NCBI GenBank assembly: GCA_018434355.1
Contig: JAHDPL010000004.1
Span: 1 to 64,000, forward strand
DNA: 64,000 bases
Origin: Sporomusaceae bacterium
Lineage (GTDB): Bacteria > Bacillota > Negativicutes > UBA1444
Direction: 5' to 3'
The notes under the pieces were generated by a model, which saw nothing but the letters and a program-made list of their open reading frames with translations, ran no database searches and had not been told where the DNA came from. Made by a program: the position numbers and the translations under genes. This document shows positions 41,894-49,017 of this stretch, piece after piece. Every line of letters starts with the position of its first letter. The first letter of the stretch is position 1.

Positions 41894-42916
41894 TTATTTC
41901 TCGCAGTCAATATCCGTTCCGTCAAGCAAACTGACTACCAGTCTGCCGCCATCATAAACCGTCAACTTCTCGACCAAGGCAAAATATAGATCGATGTCAA
42001 ATTCATCGATTGGCTTGTACTCCGTTATGATCCCAATAAGCTGCTTGACCTTATATCTTACCAATGCATTCTCGTTCTCCAACCGCTCACGCCACTTCCA
42101 AATAAAACCATCCTTGTTTTCAACGATCAAATTGAAAGCACCAACAAATGCCTGGAACAACGCCCCATCGTCAATATGTCGACTGTCGCATCCTTTCTTC
42201 CCTTTTTTAATATACTTGCCATTGCACCGCCAGATGACCCGCCTAAACCGATCATCAGTAGAATTCCATACCTTTCTGCCAAAGACCTGGCCACAAGAAC
42301 CGCATATTACTCTGCCGGCAAACGGATTGTCGGTAGTTGCATACTCCAGCTTCTGAATGCCATATTCTAACGCGTAATTCCGCCTGCGTTCCATCTCAAG
42401 CTGAACCGCTTCCCACATCTCTTGATCGATAATCGCCGGATGGCTGCCTTCCACATAATACTGCGGCACCTGGCCGTTGTTATCCGCTCGTTTTTTGTTT
42501 AGGAAATCAATGGTATAGGTCTTCTGCAATAACGCATCGCCCTTGTACTTTTCATTGGTCAGCATTTTCCGTATGCTGCCTTCATACCACTTTGCCTTGC
42601 CGTTCCAGTTTAATACGCCGTCCAATTCCAAGGCTCTAGCAATCCGACAGGCTCCTTTACCGTCAAGGAACTCCGTATATATCCGTCTGACGATTTTCGC
42701 CTGCTTTTCATTGATTACGAGGTTGCCGTCTTTATTTTTATCGTAGCCCAAAAATTTCGTGTGATTGATATGCAGTTTTCCTTGCTCAAAGCGCCGCCGG
42801 ATACCCCAAGTCGAGTTTTCCGAGATCGACCGCGATTCGTCTTGCGCCAACGAACTGAGAATCGAAAGCAGCACTTCGCCTTTGCTGTCTAGCGTGAAAA
42901 TATTTTCTTTCTCGAA
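41894..42916 (-). pseudogene. Large serine recombinase, C-terminal half (split gene, part B)
   Basis: From the core sequence at 42,909 onward the frame reads FEKENIFTLDSKGEVLLSIL, then the recombinase domain (FLDGKGACRIARALELDGV), zinc ribbon (ICGSCGQVFGRK, CDSRHIDD), and an end VSLLDGTDIDCEK. The missing N-terminal catalytic half is at 60,059-60,453 on the same strand. Joining the halves at TTCGAGAA gives VTFEKENIF with no frame break and a protein of about 465 residues. The piece upstream of 42,916 (RGFLQRCKTLRNPK) belongs to the inserted element. Confidence 0.9.
42909..42916. other. Left attachment core (attL)
   Basis: TTCTCGAA occurs here and at 60,059-60,066. Recombination between the two restores the serine recombinase reading frame exactly. 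This defines the ends of the integrated element. Confidence 0.8.
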
Positions 42917-43033
42917 CAGCTGTTTAGGGTTTCGCAGCGTTTTGCATCGTTGCAGGAATCCCCGTTTCATGCGGTTTTTCGCGGTCGACCACTGTGTATC
43001 GTTTCACTTCGTAGTGCCTTTTGCCGAAGGTTA

Positions 43034-43090: not shown

Positions 43091-44497
43091 TCACTTCTGT
43101 GCGTCTGCGCCCGATTCTGTGTTTTTAGCCTCAATTTCTGTGTTTAGGCTTAGCACCCGGCTGATTGCGCTTGCCGCCTTCGCTCTGGTTTCGCTGAAAA
43201 CGTGGGCGTAGATATTTTCCGTGGTCAGCGTGTTCGAGTGACCGAGGTGCTCGGAGATGACCTTGACGGGTACTCCCGCATTGATCAGCAGGGACGCATT
43301 GGCATGGCGCAGATCGTGAATGTGCAAATCCGGCAAGTCGTACCGCTTCAAGAGTTTCTTAAATGTCGCATTCACGAAACCGAGGTTCACGTATTCGCCG
43401 TACTCGCCGGTAAAGACCGCCCCTCGCTCAATCCAGCGCTCACCGACGTCATGTCGACGCTGGTCCTGCCAGCATTTTTGCTCTTCCAGTAGTTTCGACA
43501 ATTCCGGCGGCATCGTAATCACACGCTCGCTGGACCTTGTTTTCGGCGTGGACAATTTGTACTTGCCCTTGGCCCGGTAGAGCGTATGCCGGACGCTGAT
43601 CGTGCCGCCTTCAAAATCAATCGCGTCCCAGTGCAGGGCGAGCATTTCGCCCACCCGCATCCCGGTGTAGAGTAGGGCGGCAATCGTCCTCTGCATTTGC
43701 TGATTCGGTACTTCCTTCAATAAGAAAAGAAGCTGCTTGCATTGACCTGCGTCAAGAAACAGCTTCTTTTTTTGCTGCATTTTAGGCGAGGTTGCATGAG
43801 CCACCGGGTTTTTGGCGATAATGTCCTTCTTCAGCGCCGTTGAGAATATTGCGGACAGCGCAGTGCGAATTCTGGCAATCGAAGCGGGGTCAATCCCTTC
43901 ATTTTCGAGTGGCTCCGCATGGAACACTTCCAAGAGTTTCTTACCCATTGCCGCCGCTATTTTCACTGCTGTCCTATCGGAGATTCGTTTCCCGCGCAAA
44001 GCGGTTCTGAGGGTAGGGTAGCCCACCTTCGCTTTTCGCGCGGTCGGACGCCATGTTCCGTCAGGCAGGGACGTCACATCGTTCATGATGTAATAGTGGC
44101 GCACTCTGCCGTTTTGGTGGAGATGGTTGAACAGTGCGTCAACCCTCGCCGTAGTGATGTCCTTCAGTTTCAGATGCCCGATGTTGGGTAAAACGTACAT
44201 ATCGATCAAATACTTTGTGCTGTTGAAAGTAGCCTCCTTCAACCGGTGCGGCGCGATCTGGTCGAAGTACCACTTGGCCAGTTCGGAAAACCGCAGGTTC
44301 TCGTTCATGTTCACCATGCCCAGACACTTCTTTTCAAAGCTGTGGGCAAAAGTCACGGCCAGCTTCTCGGCCTTGCCGGGAGTCACACCCTCCGGTGATT
44401 TGAACGTCGTGGTCTTGCGAATCTGGCGTCCTTTCATGTCATAGCCGAGCGATACCATAATCCGGAAGGTATCGCCGCGCTTCTTGATGCTCGGCAT
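43091..44497 (-). CDS. int: Tyrosine integrase with an inserted helix-turn-helix
   Basis: A 468-residue integrase. N-terminal arm-binding-like domain, core-binding domain, and a catalytic domain with Arg in TGMRVGEML, HDLRH, LGHS and the nucleophile Tyr in TENIYAHVF. The core-binding domain is interrupted at about residues 130-200 by a stretch (VGYPTLRTALRGKRISDRTAVKIAAAMGK, split here at about 158-186) that reads like a Cro/C1 helix-turn-helix. ATG 44,495-44,497 follows the repressor stop. It should act at the TTCTCGAA cores. Confidence 0.92.
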   Translation of the reverse strand: MPSIKKRGDTFRIMVSLGYDMKGRQIRKTTTFKSPEGVTPGKAEKLAVTFAHSFEKKCLGMVNMNENLRFSELAKWYFDQIAPHRLKEATFNSTKYLIDMYVLPNIGHLKLKDITTARVDALFNHLHQNGRVRHYYIMNDVTSLPDGTWRPTARKAKVGYPTLRTALRGKRISDRTAVKIAAAMGKKLLEVFHAEPLENEGIDPASIARIRTALSAIFSTALKKDIIAKNPVAHATSPKMQQKKKLFLDAGQCKQLLFLLKEVPNQQMQRTIAALLYTGMRVGEMLALHWDAIDFEGGTISVRHTLYRAKGKYKLSTPKTRSSERVITMPPELSKLLEEQKCWQDQRRHDVGERWIERGAVFTGEYGEYVNLGFVNATFKKLLKRYDLPDLHIHDLRHANASLLINAGVPVKVISEHLGHSNTLTTENIYAHVFSETRAKAASAISRVLSLNTEIEAKNTESGADAQK

Positions 44498-44498
44498 C

Positions 44499-44927
44499 CT
44501 ATTCCACTTCCTCTTTTCGGAGCCGGATACGCAAGGCAAAATCCTGCTCCGGCAGCAGCGAATTCTGCTCTCTGCATCGCAGCATTTCTGCTTTGATCAG
44601 GCCCTCGACCGCAGCTTTGCCAAACTCGTCCAGCCGGAGGTAGGCAAGCATCGCTTCATGAAACTGCGCCTCCGACTCCCACCTTCCAAGCTGCTCAACA
44701 TCTTCCTCGGTCATTTTGGGCGAAGAAGCGTCCTTGGAATAACCGAGAATATAATCCATGCGTTTGTCAAAAATCTCCGACAGGTTGTTCAACGTTTCAA
44801 AATTCGGTTCCCGCTTGCCGGTTTCCCACATGGCGATCGTGCCTTTGGACACACCCATCGCCTCGGCAAGTTGTACCTGAGTCATACCTTTTTCCGCGCG
44901 GATTTCCTTTAATCTTTCAGCAAACAT
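44499..44927 (-). CDS. Cro/C1-type phage repressor
   Basis: A 142-residue protein with an N-terminal XRE helix-turn-helix (MTQVQLAEAMGVSKGTIAMW) and an acidic C-terminal part. ATG 44,925-44,927 has GAGGTGAT upstream. It is co-transcribed with the integrase and divergent from the early genes, the usual lysogeny switch layout. Operators lie in the gap upstream. Confidence 0.87.
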   Translation of the reverse strand: MFAERLKEIRAEKGMTQVQLAEAMGVSKGTIAMWETGKREPNFETLNNLSEIFDKRMDYILGYSKDASSPKMTEEDVEQLGRWESEAQFHEAMLAYLRLDEFGKAAVEGLIKAEMLRCREQNSLLPEQDFALRIRLRKEEVE

Positions 44928-44961
44928 TTCTATCACCTCGCAGCTTTATGGTATCACTATG

Positions 44962-44997: not shown

Positions 44998-45049
44998 GAA
45001 TCAGCAGTATCGTCCTTTGGACAAAGATAACCAAGCGTGAGATTAACCA

Positions 45050-45078
45050 TTGTATTTTCTCACTATATGTTGTATTAT
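45050..45078 (+). promoter_or_regulatory. Early rightward promoter of the element
   Basis: TTGTAT and TATTAT with a 17-base spacer, reading towards the small HTH and primase genes. Confidence 0.55.
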
Positions 45079-45111
45079 AAAGGAGAGAATCTCACAGAAG
45101 GAGGGAATTTC

Positions 45112-45306
45112 GTGGAGAATAAAAAACCGTCCATGCTGACCATCCGGGAAATCGCCAGAACCGGCCTGTTGTCCGAACACGCGCTCCGGCTGCTGCTCAA
45201 AGACGGAAAGCTGCCGGTCATCTACGTGGGGAAAAAAGCGCTCGTCAACTTCGACCGTCTGTGCGATCAGCTGGCGGCACTGGGCAAGGGCAACTTTGAG
45301 AACTAA
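45112..45306 (+). CDS. Small helix-turn-helix protein, excisionase-like
   Basis: A 64-residue protein (SMLTIREIARTGLLSEHALR, then LLKDGKLPVIYVGKKALVNF) with the winged-helix pattern of excisionases and MerR-like small DNA-binding proteins: helix-turn-helix, then a short beta wing with a basic tip. GTG 45,112 has AAGGAGGG upstream. First early gene, divergent from the repressor; it may direct excision. Confidence 0.75.
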   Translation: MENKKPSMLTIREIARTGLLSEHALRLLLKDGKLPVIYVGKKALVNFDRLCDQLAALGKGNFEN

Positions 45307-45344: not shown

Positions 45345-47651
45345 ATGTACGAGAAACTGCCGCAGAAGCTAAAAGATACGGGCCTGTTCTGCGCCTACCG
45401 GAATGAACAGCGGGGCGGCAAAAAGACCAAGGTCCCCTACAATATGCGTACCCCAAGAAAGGCGCAGCCCAATAACAAGGAGTCCTTCTGCGACTTCGCC
45501 ACCGCCCTGCGGCACGTTTCAAAGTATGACGGCCTCGGCGTGGGCGTGTTCGACGGCCTGTGCGCCATTGACCTCGACCACTGCGTCAATCCGGACCAAA
45601 CCCTCACCGCCCTCGCTGCGGATGTGGCCGAGATCATGGACAGCTACACCGAGTACAGTCCCTCCGGCACTGGCCTCCGCATCTTCTTCACCGCCGACGG
45701 CTTTGAGTACGACAAAGCCCGCTTCTACATCAACAACCAGAAAGTGGGCCTTGAGATTTATGTCAACGGCGCGACGCACAAGTTCCTGACCGTTACCGGC
45801 AATGTTCTGCGCGATCGTGGCCTTGAGGACCGCAGCCAGCAGCTGCAAGCGGTGCTGGACAAGTACATGAATCGCCCGAACTCAAAAGTGGCACAAAAGC
45901 CGAATACCGGAAAGTCCTACCTCTCGGATGCTACGGTGCTGGAGAAAGCAGCCAAATCCAGTCAAGCCGAAAAATTCAACCGGTTATGGGCAGGGGATAT
46001 CACAGGCTACGCCAGCCCAAGCGATGCGGACATGGCGCTGGCAGTCATGCTGGCATTCTGGTGCGGCGGGGATATCCGGCAAATGGACACCCTGTTCCGT
46101 CAGTCCGGTCTGATGCGGGACAAGTGGGACCGACCGCAGTCCGGCTCCACCTATGGCGAGATCACGCTGGATAAGGCCGTGGGGATGACCTCGAAGTTTT
46201 ACAAACCCATCGCAGGTCGCTCAGCCTCCGAGGATTTCAACGACGTCGCACAGGAACTGAAAAATTTGCAGCCGGAAACGAGCGACCGCTACGCCTGGAC
46301 CGATATCGGCGCAAGCCGCCTGTTTGCCGACTGCTTCAAGGCCGTGGCCCGTTATGTGCCGGAGCGGAAAATGTGGTACAGCTATGATGGCGGTATCTGG
46401 AAACCGGACACTGGCAACCTCAAGGTGATGGAACTGTGCAAGGCCCTTGCCGACGCACTTCTCATCCACGCCGTGGAGATTCAAGACGAGCGCCAGCGGA
46501 GCGCCTTCATCGACTACTGCCGCCGGTGGCAGCAGCGCAAATACCGCGAGGTTGTCTTGAAAGACGCGCAAGGCGTGTACCCGATCGCCATGAGCGAGTT
46601 TGACCGCGATCCGTTCGTATTCAACTGTTCCAATGGGACGCTACACCTTGGCAGCATGGAATTTCGGGACCACTGCAGCGAGGACCGGCTGACGAAAATA
46701 TCCCCGGTCAAATTTGACCCCACTGCCTGCTGCGAGCGTTTTGAAGAGTTTGTGGGCGAGATCACCAGCGGCGATGCGGAGAAAGCAAAATTCCTGCAAA
46801 AAGCTTTCGGCTACGGCATCAGCGGCGATACCCGCCATGAGTGCCTGTTCGTCCTCTACGGCTCGACCACGCGAAACGGCAAGGGAACGCTGTGCGAGAG
46901 CGTACTCAGGGTACTCGGCAGCTACGGATGCACCGCAAGGCCGGAAAGCATCAGCCTAAAAAACAACATCAACAGTTCCAATCCCAGCGAGGATATTGCC
47001 CGACTTGCCGGAGTGCGCTTCGCCAATATTTCCGAACCGAGTAGGGGATTGGTACTGAACGCCGCGCAGGTAAAGAGCATGACCGGCAACGACTCCATCA
47101 ATGCCCGGTTCCTGCATGAGAATTCCTTCGACTTCGCTCCCCAGTTCAAGCTTTACATCAATGCCAACTACCTGCCGGTGATCAACGACATGACGCTGTT
47201 CTCCAGCGGTCGTGTAATCATCATCCCGTTTGATCGCCACTTCGACGAATCCGAGCAGGACAAGACGCTGAAGCGGGAATTCGCCAAAGCAAAAAACCAG
47301 AGCGCCATCTTCAACTGGCTTCTTGAGGGGTACCGGCTGCTCACCGAAGAAGGCTTTACGCAGCCGGAATCGGTCAGAGCCGCCACCGACTCCTACCGCC
47401 ATGACAGCGACAAAATCGCCCTGTTCATGGAGGATACGCTGCAGGTGGACCCAAACGGCGAGGAGCGCACTTCGGACGTGTATTATCGCTACCAAAGATG
47501 GTGCGCGGAAAACGGCCACTACACTGAGAACATCAAGAATTTCAAGCAGGGACTTCTGTCGCTTGCCACCGTCACACGGCGAAGGCCACGCGCTGGCGGT
47601 GGGGAGACAACGCTTCTCATCGGCTACAAATTGCTCAGCGAATTTTTGTAA
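45345..47651 (+). CDS. Phage/plasmid primase-helicase, D5/P4 family
   Basis: A 768-residue replication protein. N-terminal archaeo-eukaryotic primase-like/bifunctional domain (GVFDGLCAIDLDHCVNP, SPSGTGLRIFF), a D5_N domain in the middle, and a superfamily 3 helicase with Walker A (LYGSTTRNGKGTL, near residue 510), Walker B (FANISEPSRG region) and sensor motif YINANYLPVINDM. It should start replication at the element's own origin and unwind DNA, as P4 alpha does. ATG 45,345 has GGAGGGG. Confidence 0.92.
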   Translation: MYEKLPQKLKDTGLFCAYRNEQRGGKKTKVPYNMRTPRKAQPNNKESFCDFATALRHVSKYDGLGVGVFDGLCAIDLDHCVNPDQTLTALAADVAEIMDSYTEYSPSGTGLRIFFTADGFEYDKARFYINNQKVGLEIYVNGATHKFLTVTGNVLRDRGLEDRSQQLQAVLDKYMNRPNSKVAQKPNTGKSYLSDATVLEKAAKSSQAEKFNRLWAGDITGYASPSDADMALAVMLAFWCGGDIRQMDTLFRQSGLMRDKWDRPQSGSTYGEITLDKAVGMTSKFYKPIAGRSASEDFNDVAQELKNLQPETSDRYAWTDIGASRLFADCFKAVARYVPERKMWYSYDGGIWKPDTGNLKVMELCKALADALLIHAVEIQDERQRSAFIDYCRRWQQRKYREVVLKDAQGVYPIAMSEFDRDPFVFNCSNGTLHLGSMEFRDHCSEDRLTKISPVKFDPTACCERFEEFVGEITSGDAEKAKFLQKAFGYGISGDTRHECLFVLYGSTTRNGKGTLCESVLRVLGSYGCTARPESISLKNNINSSNPSEDIARLAGVRFANISEPSRGLVLNAAQVKSMTGNDSINARFLHENSFDFAPQFKLYINANYLPVINDMTLFSSGRVIIIPFDRHFDESEQDKTLKREFAKAKNQSAIFNWLLEGYRLLTEEGFTQPESVRAATDSYRHDSDKIALFMEDTLQVDPNGEERTSDVYYRYQRWCAENGHYTENIKNFKQGLLSLATVTRRRPRAGGGETTLLIGYKLLSEFL

Positions 47652-47660
47652 AACACACCC

Positions 47661-47750
47661 TTGTCGCAGGTTGTCGCAGCAAAAATAGGTCATTCCAAAT
47701 ATCGCTCTTTTATAGGGAGGACCTGTTTTACTTGCGACAACCTGCGACAA
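47661..47750. repeat. 18-bp inverted repeat of doubled iterons, candidate replication origin
   Basis: Arms 47,661-47,678 and 47,733-47,750 are perfect inverted copies of TTGTCGCAGGTTGTCGCA; each arm contains TTGTCGCA twice, giving four iterons. The 54-base centre is AT-rich and has a further pair, AAATAGGTC against GACCTGTTT. It lies directly after the primase stop. P4-type and satellite origins use repeated iterons bound by the primase, so this is the best origin candidate. Confidence 0.7.
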
Positions 47751-47845: not shown

Positions 47846-48097
47846 ATGGAGCTCAGTAAGGCGTATCAACAGCAGCTGAAAAAAGGACTGGACCTTGTGA
47901 ATTTCGACGTCTTCCGCATCCTGCCGCAGAAGCCCAATGTGGCGGCGGTCATTCTGCGCAGCAAACAGCCGGACCGGGACTGCCTCTGGTGCGTCCAGCA
48001 TCTGGGCAACGGCCACTACTTCAACACCTATGCGCAAGCGCTCGACTACTGCAAAAACCGGCGCTGGAACCATCCTGCCACACAAAAAAATAGGTAA
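47846..48097 (+). CDS. Small hypothetical protein of the element
   Basis: An 83-residue protein (LNQ-rich start ELSKAYQQQLKKGLDLV; later WCVQHLGNGHYFNTY). AAGGAGGTGAG precedes the ATG. Placed between the origin-like repeat and the capsid gene. No family recognised; may be a scaffold or size factor by position only. Confidence 0.65.
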   Translation: MELSKAYQQQLKKGLDLVNFDVFRILPQKPNVAAVILRSKQPDRDCLWCVQHLGNGHYFNTYAQALDYCKNRRWNHPATQKNR

Positions 48098-48111: not shown

Positions 48112-49017
48112 ATGACAACAGCCATCTACGAACGCCAATTCTGGAACCTGATGCGCGGCAAACAAATCGACATCTCCGATGTATCCATCAAAGCAGCCGG
48201 TTCCGGCGCGTATCTGACGCCGGAGGAATTCAAGGGCAAGTTCGACAAGGCGCTGGCCAAGGAGTGCGTCTTCCGTAGACTCGCCACCGTAGTCGGCACC
48301 ACTTCACCGGACGGGAAAATCTCGGCGGTCGCATCCACAGGAGAAGCCGATTGGGTAGGCGAGGGCGCGGCCATCCCGGAGAGCGCCGACACCATCACGC
48401 AGTTTGCGATTGGCTCCCACAAGCTGGCCAGCCTGGTCCGGCTGAAGAATTCCTTTGTGGGCGATACCGCCTTCCCCTTGGAGAACTATCTCCTTGGCGC
48501 TTTCGCCAGACGCTTTGGCAGGGCGGAGGAGGCGGCTTTCCTTAATGGCTCGGGCGTAGACCGCCCCTCGGGGCTTCTCGGTGCAACCGGGGCCGGTGTG
48601 GGCGTCACAGCGACAAGCGCGACCGCCATCACCTATGATGAAGTGGTCAAACTCTACTTTTCGCTGAAAGCCGAACACCGGGCCAGCGCCATCTTCCTGA
48701 TGCACGACGATACCGCCATGGCGCTGCGCACGCTAAAAGACACAGCGGGAAATCTCCTCTGGAACGCCGAGCGCGACACCATCTTCGGTAAGCCGGTCGT
48801 TACTTCGCCCTCAATGCCTTGGGCTGCGGCGGAGAAAAAGGCGATTGTCTTCGGGGATCTCTCGCACTACTGGGTGAACGAGCGCCAGCCATTATCCGTC
48901 AAGCGCCTCAACGAACGGTACAGTGTGCAGAACGAGATTGGCTTCATGGCCTTTGAACGTCTGGACGGCAAACTGATTCTGCCGGATGCGGTCAAAGTCC
49001 TTCAGATGGCCGAGTAA
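48112..49017 (+). CDS. Phage major capsid protein, HK97 fold
   Basis: A 301-residue major capsid protein. The HK97-type pattern is seen from AAGSGAYLTPEEF through GEGAAIPESADTITQ, the E-loop/P-domain GRAEEAAFLNGSG and the C-terminal VFGDLSHYWVNERQ and FMAFERLDGKL. The N-terminal scaffold (delta) domain of about 100 residues found in full prophages is absent. No portal, protease, terminase or tail gene was found in the element. AAGGGGG precedes the ATG. Confidence 0.9.
   Translation: MTTAIYERQFWNLMRGKQIDISDVSIKAAGSGAYLTPEEFKGKFDKALAKECVFRRLATVVGTTSPDGKISAVASTGEADWVGEGAAIPESADTITQFAIGSHKLASLVRLKNSFVGDTAFPLENYLLGAFARRFGRAEEAAFLNGSGVDRPSGLLGATGAGVGVTATSATAITYDEVVKLYFSLKAEHRASAIFLMHDDTAMALRTLKDTAGNLLWNAERDTIFGKPVVTSPSMPWAAAEKKAIVFGDLSHYWVNERQPLSVKRLNERYSVQNEIGFMAFERLDGKLILPDAVKVLQMAE

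Follow-up and report, generated by a model that had tools for sequence, protein, structure and literature searches.

A four-iteron inverted repeat behind a D5-type primase-helicase gene as a probable replication origin, with iterons that co-vary with two residues of the primase

Introduction

What is the role of the inverted repeat that directly follows a primase-helicase gene in the window (the whole stretch of DNA analysed, 64,000 nucleotides), and which protein would read it? Judged from the sequences of the window and of its relatives, it very probably serves as the origin of replication of a small mobile element that resembles a phage. The anatomy of the repeat and of the element is described below, followed by its conservation, the co-variation of the iterons with the primase, and the explanations that compete for these observations.

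Anatomy of the repeat

The repeat has two perfect 18-bp arms (47661-47678 and 47733-47750), each composed of TTGTCGCA-GG-TTGTCGCA, and starts 9 bp after the stop codon of the primase gene (47649-47651). Its parts are as follows.

47661..47668, plus strand: left outer iteron TTGTCGCA
47671..47678, plus strand: left inner iteron TTGTCGCA, at a spacing of 10 bp to the outer copy (the commonest spacing in relatives)
47679..47732, no strand: AT-rich core of 54 bp with a nested imperfect repeat, presumed melting region
47705..47719, no strand: central mini-palindrome CTCTTTTATAGGGAG, within the core
47733..47740, minus strand: right inner iteron TTGTCGCA
47743..47750, minus strand: right outer iteron TTGTCGCA

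These coordinates agree with the preliminary description, which had listed perfect 18-bp arms with the iteron twice in each and an AT-rich core with a second, nested repeat; the core is 63% A+T (counted by eye), and the nested repeat (AAAAATAGGTC / GACCTGTTTT) is imperfect. The repeat is well beyond chance: with up to 3 mismatches allowed, its 18-mer is expected 0.03 times in 64 kb, and the arm pair occurs only once in the 3.9-Mb genome. The repeat of the window may have a structural role, in that the whole 90 bp is able to form a long hairpin (-53 kcal/mol for the folded strand, z = -10).

The element and its genes

The repeat lies within a set of genes arranged as follows.

43091..44539, minus strand: tyrosine integrase of the element
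44499..44936, minus strand: Cro/C1-type repressor, divergent from the primase
45037..45306, plus strand: small ORF upstream of the primase, HTH/Xis-like by eye and by position, no family match
45345..47651, plus strand: primase-helicase (P0001, 768 aa) with an NrS-1-like primase part, D5_N, DUF5906 and Pox_D5
47469..47633, plus strand: predicted winged helix at the C-terminus of the primase (residues 709-763; AlphaFold2, mean pLDDT 87), presumed iteron reader
47601..47606, plus strand: codons of G753-E754, two residues of the predicted wing that co-vary with the fourth iteron base
47846..48097, plus strand: small ORF between the putative origin and the capsid gene, no family match
48112..49017, plus strand: lone HK97-type capsid protein gene

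Among protein families, P0001 fits best a phage DNA primase family. The gene order is that of phage-inducible chromosomal islands (PICIs), with integrase and repressor leftward and xis, pri-rep and ori rightward; the ORF at 45037-45306 would take the xis role. Beside the intact tyrosine integrase, an ORF of a serine recombinase without the resolvase N-terminal domain is present at 41894-42970. In respect to the ends of the element, no direct repeat of at least 13 bp is shared between 41.2-43.1 kb and 48.9-60 kb, which leaves room for shorter or imperfect attachment sites, and a search for a tRNA target of integration found none.

No other recognised head or tail genes are found near the capsid gene (48112-49017), which is also the case in a compact element present at other loci (L004, 3509-9555; L005-L028; L410, 7010-12474). 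That element comprises a primase, an origin, a lone HK97 capsid gene, TnpW and a large serine recombinase, with restriction-modification genes upstream in several cases. It is ~94-98% identical over ~6 kb in many Bacillota genera, is present also on a Bacillus badius plasmid, and no description of it was found in the literature searched. A small circular Thermaerobacter plasmid (L411, NZ_CP037897.1, 8456 bp) with an integrase, an HTH protein and a P4-type primase may represent a related element in its episomal form.

Conservation in relatives

Relatives were collected by searching with the primase protein (25 loci in genomes) and by scanning viral contigs with an alignment (59 loci). Alignments were needed for the viral scan, as a single protein found only two loci there; genome searches at class and family level gave almost no additional loci. 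Scans with the DNA pattern also matched contigs without a detected D5-type primase, and those were set aside.

About 50 distinct relatives share the layout of two iterons per arm, usually with a spacing of 9-10 bp, and in nearly all close relatives inspected the 2+2 inverted iterons are located at or shortly past the end of the primase gene. In 49 loci the core is mostly 51-57 bp long (60 bp in one) with a mean A+T content of 72.5%. A clear repeat adjoining the gene is absent in a few relatives (e.g. L078, L089 and L059). The iteron sequence follows TG[T/G]NGC(A), with all four copies varying together: TGTAGCA, TGTGGCA/TGGGGCA and TGTCGCA are the types observed, with TGTTGC in a few relatives, and the fourth base is identical across the four iterons in 48 of the 49 loci. 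The arm spacers and the inner core are often non-complementary; inner complementarity is mostly 0.35-0.65, compared with 0.29 expected from composition. Since this pairing exceeds composition only somewhat, the conserved part is the iterons and not the hairpin. The motif TATAG is present in 34 of the 49 cores, with ~32 as its most frequent offset, and is a possible melting or priming site.

The origin had been proposed in the preliminary description from the neighbouring D5/P4 primase, with iteron conservation among related elements named beforehand as a check, and loss of the repeat in replicating relatives as a refutation. This proposal gains support, as relatives keep both the iterons and their geometry, the four iterons change together, and their sequence co-varies with the primase.

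Some of the phage primases (L092-L101) have a DnaG/CHC2-like N-terminus (assigned by eye in the L003/L092 group) joined to the same helicase C-terminus. In phages with the N-terminus swapped in this way the iterons are unchanged, which ties the repeats to the C-terminal half of the primase. Distant primases (those of phages A2, PSA, phi105 and phiSP15-1, and a second primase of the same genome) are accompanied by AT-rich stretches with inverted iterons on both sides, the iteron sequence being a different one. The second primase of the genome (L053, contig C26) has GTAACG iterons in inverted sets at the gene end, and is taken as a second origin of the same layout and other specificity. Arrays of TGTAGCA/TGTCGCA iterons are found also in seven contigs lacking a detected D5-type primase (L316, L391, L377, L328, L366, L369 and L239), where other initiators may use similar repeats.

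Co-variation of the iterons with the primase wing

When the C-termini of the primases are aligned, the fourth iteron base is tracked best at positions 754 and 753 of P0001, and no tracking of the iteron type is observed for the adjacent columns 745-752 and 755-764. Residues 753 and 754 lie between strands 742-746 and 755-763 (model pLDDT 87), and in the model they are predicted to belong to the wing of a winged helix that includes helices 709-722 and 730-740. The co-variation of iteron and wing residues is, like the anatomy and its conservation, directly observed. It was described on 56 non-redundant primase-iteron pairs (<97% identity; iteron type read by eye for eight loci). C-type iterons go with SE, SQ or GE (11/11) and G-type iterons with EK, DK, HK, EQ or AQK (22/22), while with A-type iterons the residues end in M, A, L or P (18/19), the exception being L098, with N-E and A. 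The four loci with T-type iterons show small residues, which the rule did not foresee and which overlap those of the A-type; the rule is confined to the types A, C and G. In total the residues account for 51 of the 56 pairs, versus 33 of 56 for assignment by nearest neighbour on the helicase core. The pairing of K with G, of E with C and of hydrophobic residues with A:T agrees with general preferences between side chains and bases. The rule does not apply to the distant relatives, whose iterons differ.

The prediction rule was written before further loci were fetched. Twenty loci were listed as new, some found by the iteron pattern and others by protein. Three of them were left out, since the training set contained their type (L004). 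Of the remaining 17, one of which (L118) shares ~95% identity with a locus used for training, the 13 with A, C or G were all predicted correctly, and for the four of T-type the rule gave a wrong prediction or none. Residue 754 differs in 95% of 20 disjoint pairs discordant in iteron type, versus 23% of concordant pairs, and columns 754 and 753 rank first and second of 467. The iteron base changed ~20 times on the helicase-core tree, and the iteron-residue association is stronger than in all 4000 simulated neutral histories.

It is likely, on these data, that D5-type primase-helicases of Bacillota phages and satellites follow a near one-to-one wing code, in which two wing residues set one base of the four iterons, and that a couple of replaced residues, together with a concerted change of one base in each of the four iterons, repeatedly switch the specificity of the origin and keep related replicons separate. 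The code appears to be new; its novelty is provisional, as no description was found in the literature searched, outside which the main SaPI origin papers lie.

Proposed mechanism and competing explanations

We consider it highly probable that an integrated element resembling a phage satellite has its replication origin in this repeat, with the iterons bound by the C-terminal winged helix of its own primase and position 4 read by G753-E754. The winged helix of the primase-helicase would bind the four TTGTCGCA iterons, two per arm and one helical turn apart, with G753-E754 in the wing reading the C at position 4 of TGTCGCA. As the arms face each other, two helicase assemblies would sit head to head with the AT-rich core between them. 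The core would melt, the N-terminal part of the primase would then prime, and replication would start. Binding, melting, the number of helicase rings and replication itself are inferred from the co-variation together with work on SaPI and SCC (PMC6092414, PMC7581432).

A transcription terminator or an RNA hairpin ending the primase transcript, with the iterons incidental, would account for a start 9 bp past the stop codon and for the very stable fold, and the earlier description had named a repeat acting only as terminator as what would speak against an origin. This was not borne out: no T-run follows the repeat and no terminator-like site (stem and T-run) is called. In addition, pairing in the arm spacers and inner core is often missing in relatives, whereas the iterons are kept and change together, and the link to residues 753-754 would be left unexplained. 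Both the terminator and the pure hairpin were rejected, and such a role for the repeat is hardly credible. A site of auto-regulation (operator), or of partition or incompatibility, bound by the primase or a repressor, is also very improbable, although binding of the primase alone would explain the co-variation equally well, and plasmid iterons often serve copy control too. The repeat is, however, downstream of the gene and not at a promoter, with no promoter-like site called nearby; moreover, the equivalent PICI regions are functional origins (PMC6092414), and that of phage A2 is annotated as an origin.

The co-variation at a true origin could also have arisen by joint recombination of the 3' end of the gene and the repeat, with no recognition by the wing, as the codons of residues 753-754 are ~55 bp from the first iteron and could travel with it. 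This is unlikely: the flanking columns do not follow the iteron type, distant lineages of the tree show the same combinations of residue class and base, and the K-G and E-C pairings fit known preferences.

Read as an origin, the previously unrecognised repeat falls into a known origin class, and the layout of this class is extended from satellites to ordinary phages. The co-variation offers a testable recognition code for these origins. The code would predict for co-resident elements which of them are able to replicate from one another's origin, and the selection of the cognate origin by the initiators of satellites and phages becomes reducible to point-mutation tests.

Comparison with known systems

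The solved relatives of P0001 are the NrS-1 primase and the SaPI5 primase-helicase (PDB 7ola). The latter shares the two-part build of P0001, by sequence (E 5e-37) and by fold (TMt 0.72 over the matched part), but is distant (~15% identity over the structural alignment). The record of Lactobacillus phage A2 has a rep_origin annotation where the gene of a homologous primase (31% identity) ends; as in the window, inverted iterons surround an AT-rich core, but the iterons are ACGGGAGGAT, their copies are more numerous, and the annotated stretch is 510 bp long. The alpha protein of phage P4, with its ori/crr, is a primase-helicase that recognises iterons. P4 alpha and its cognate ori are mentioned in PMC6092414.

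The preliminary description had not recognised the type of origin. By analogy of layout, the site belongs with the known SaPI/PICI origins (PMC6092414, PMC7581432), with a different iteron family. In PICIs the origin lies on the 3' side of rep and has an AT-rich region between two sets of iterons, and cloned pri-rep-ori segments replicate; the gene order of Gram-positive PICIs matches that of the window element (PMC6092414), which has in addition a lone capsid gene. As in SaPIs and PICIs, the repeat is located immediately 3' of the pri-rep gene (9 bp), and so it is in close relatives. In SaPIs, the C-terminal domain of Rep reads the iterons directly downstream (PMC7581432); for P0001 the co-variation supports such a reading strongly, though indirectly. 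Similarly, in SCCmec the C-terminal domain of the D5-type helicase Cch2 binds direct repeats just downstream of its gene (PMC7581432), in line with the reading proposed here; the putative origin differs in having three AAGTG iterons, inverted repeats that are not needed for binding, and a separate priming polymerase. Compared with the origins of SaPIbov1, SaPI1, EfCIV583 and EcCICFT073, the site described here is distinguished by its compact and fixed 2+2 layout of TG[T/G]NGC(A) iterons, by the NrS-1/D5-type primase, and by the co-variation of one base with two residues, which was not found described in the literature searched.
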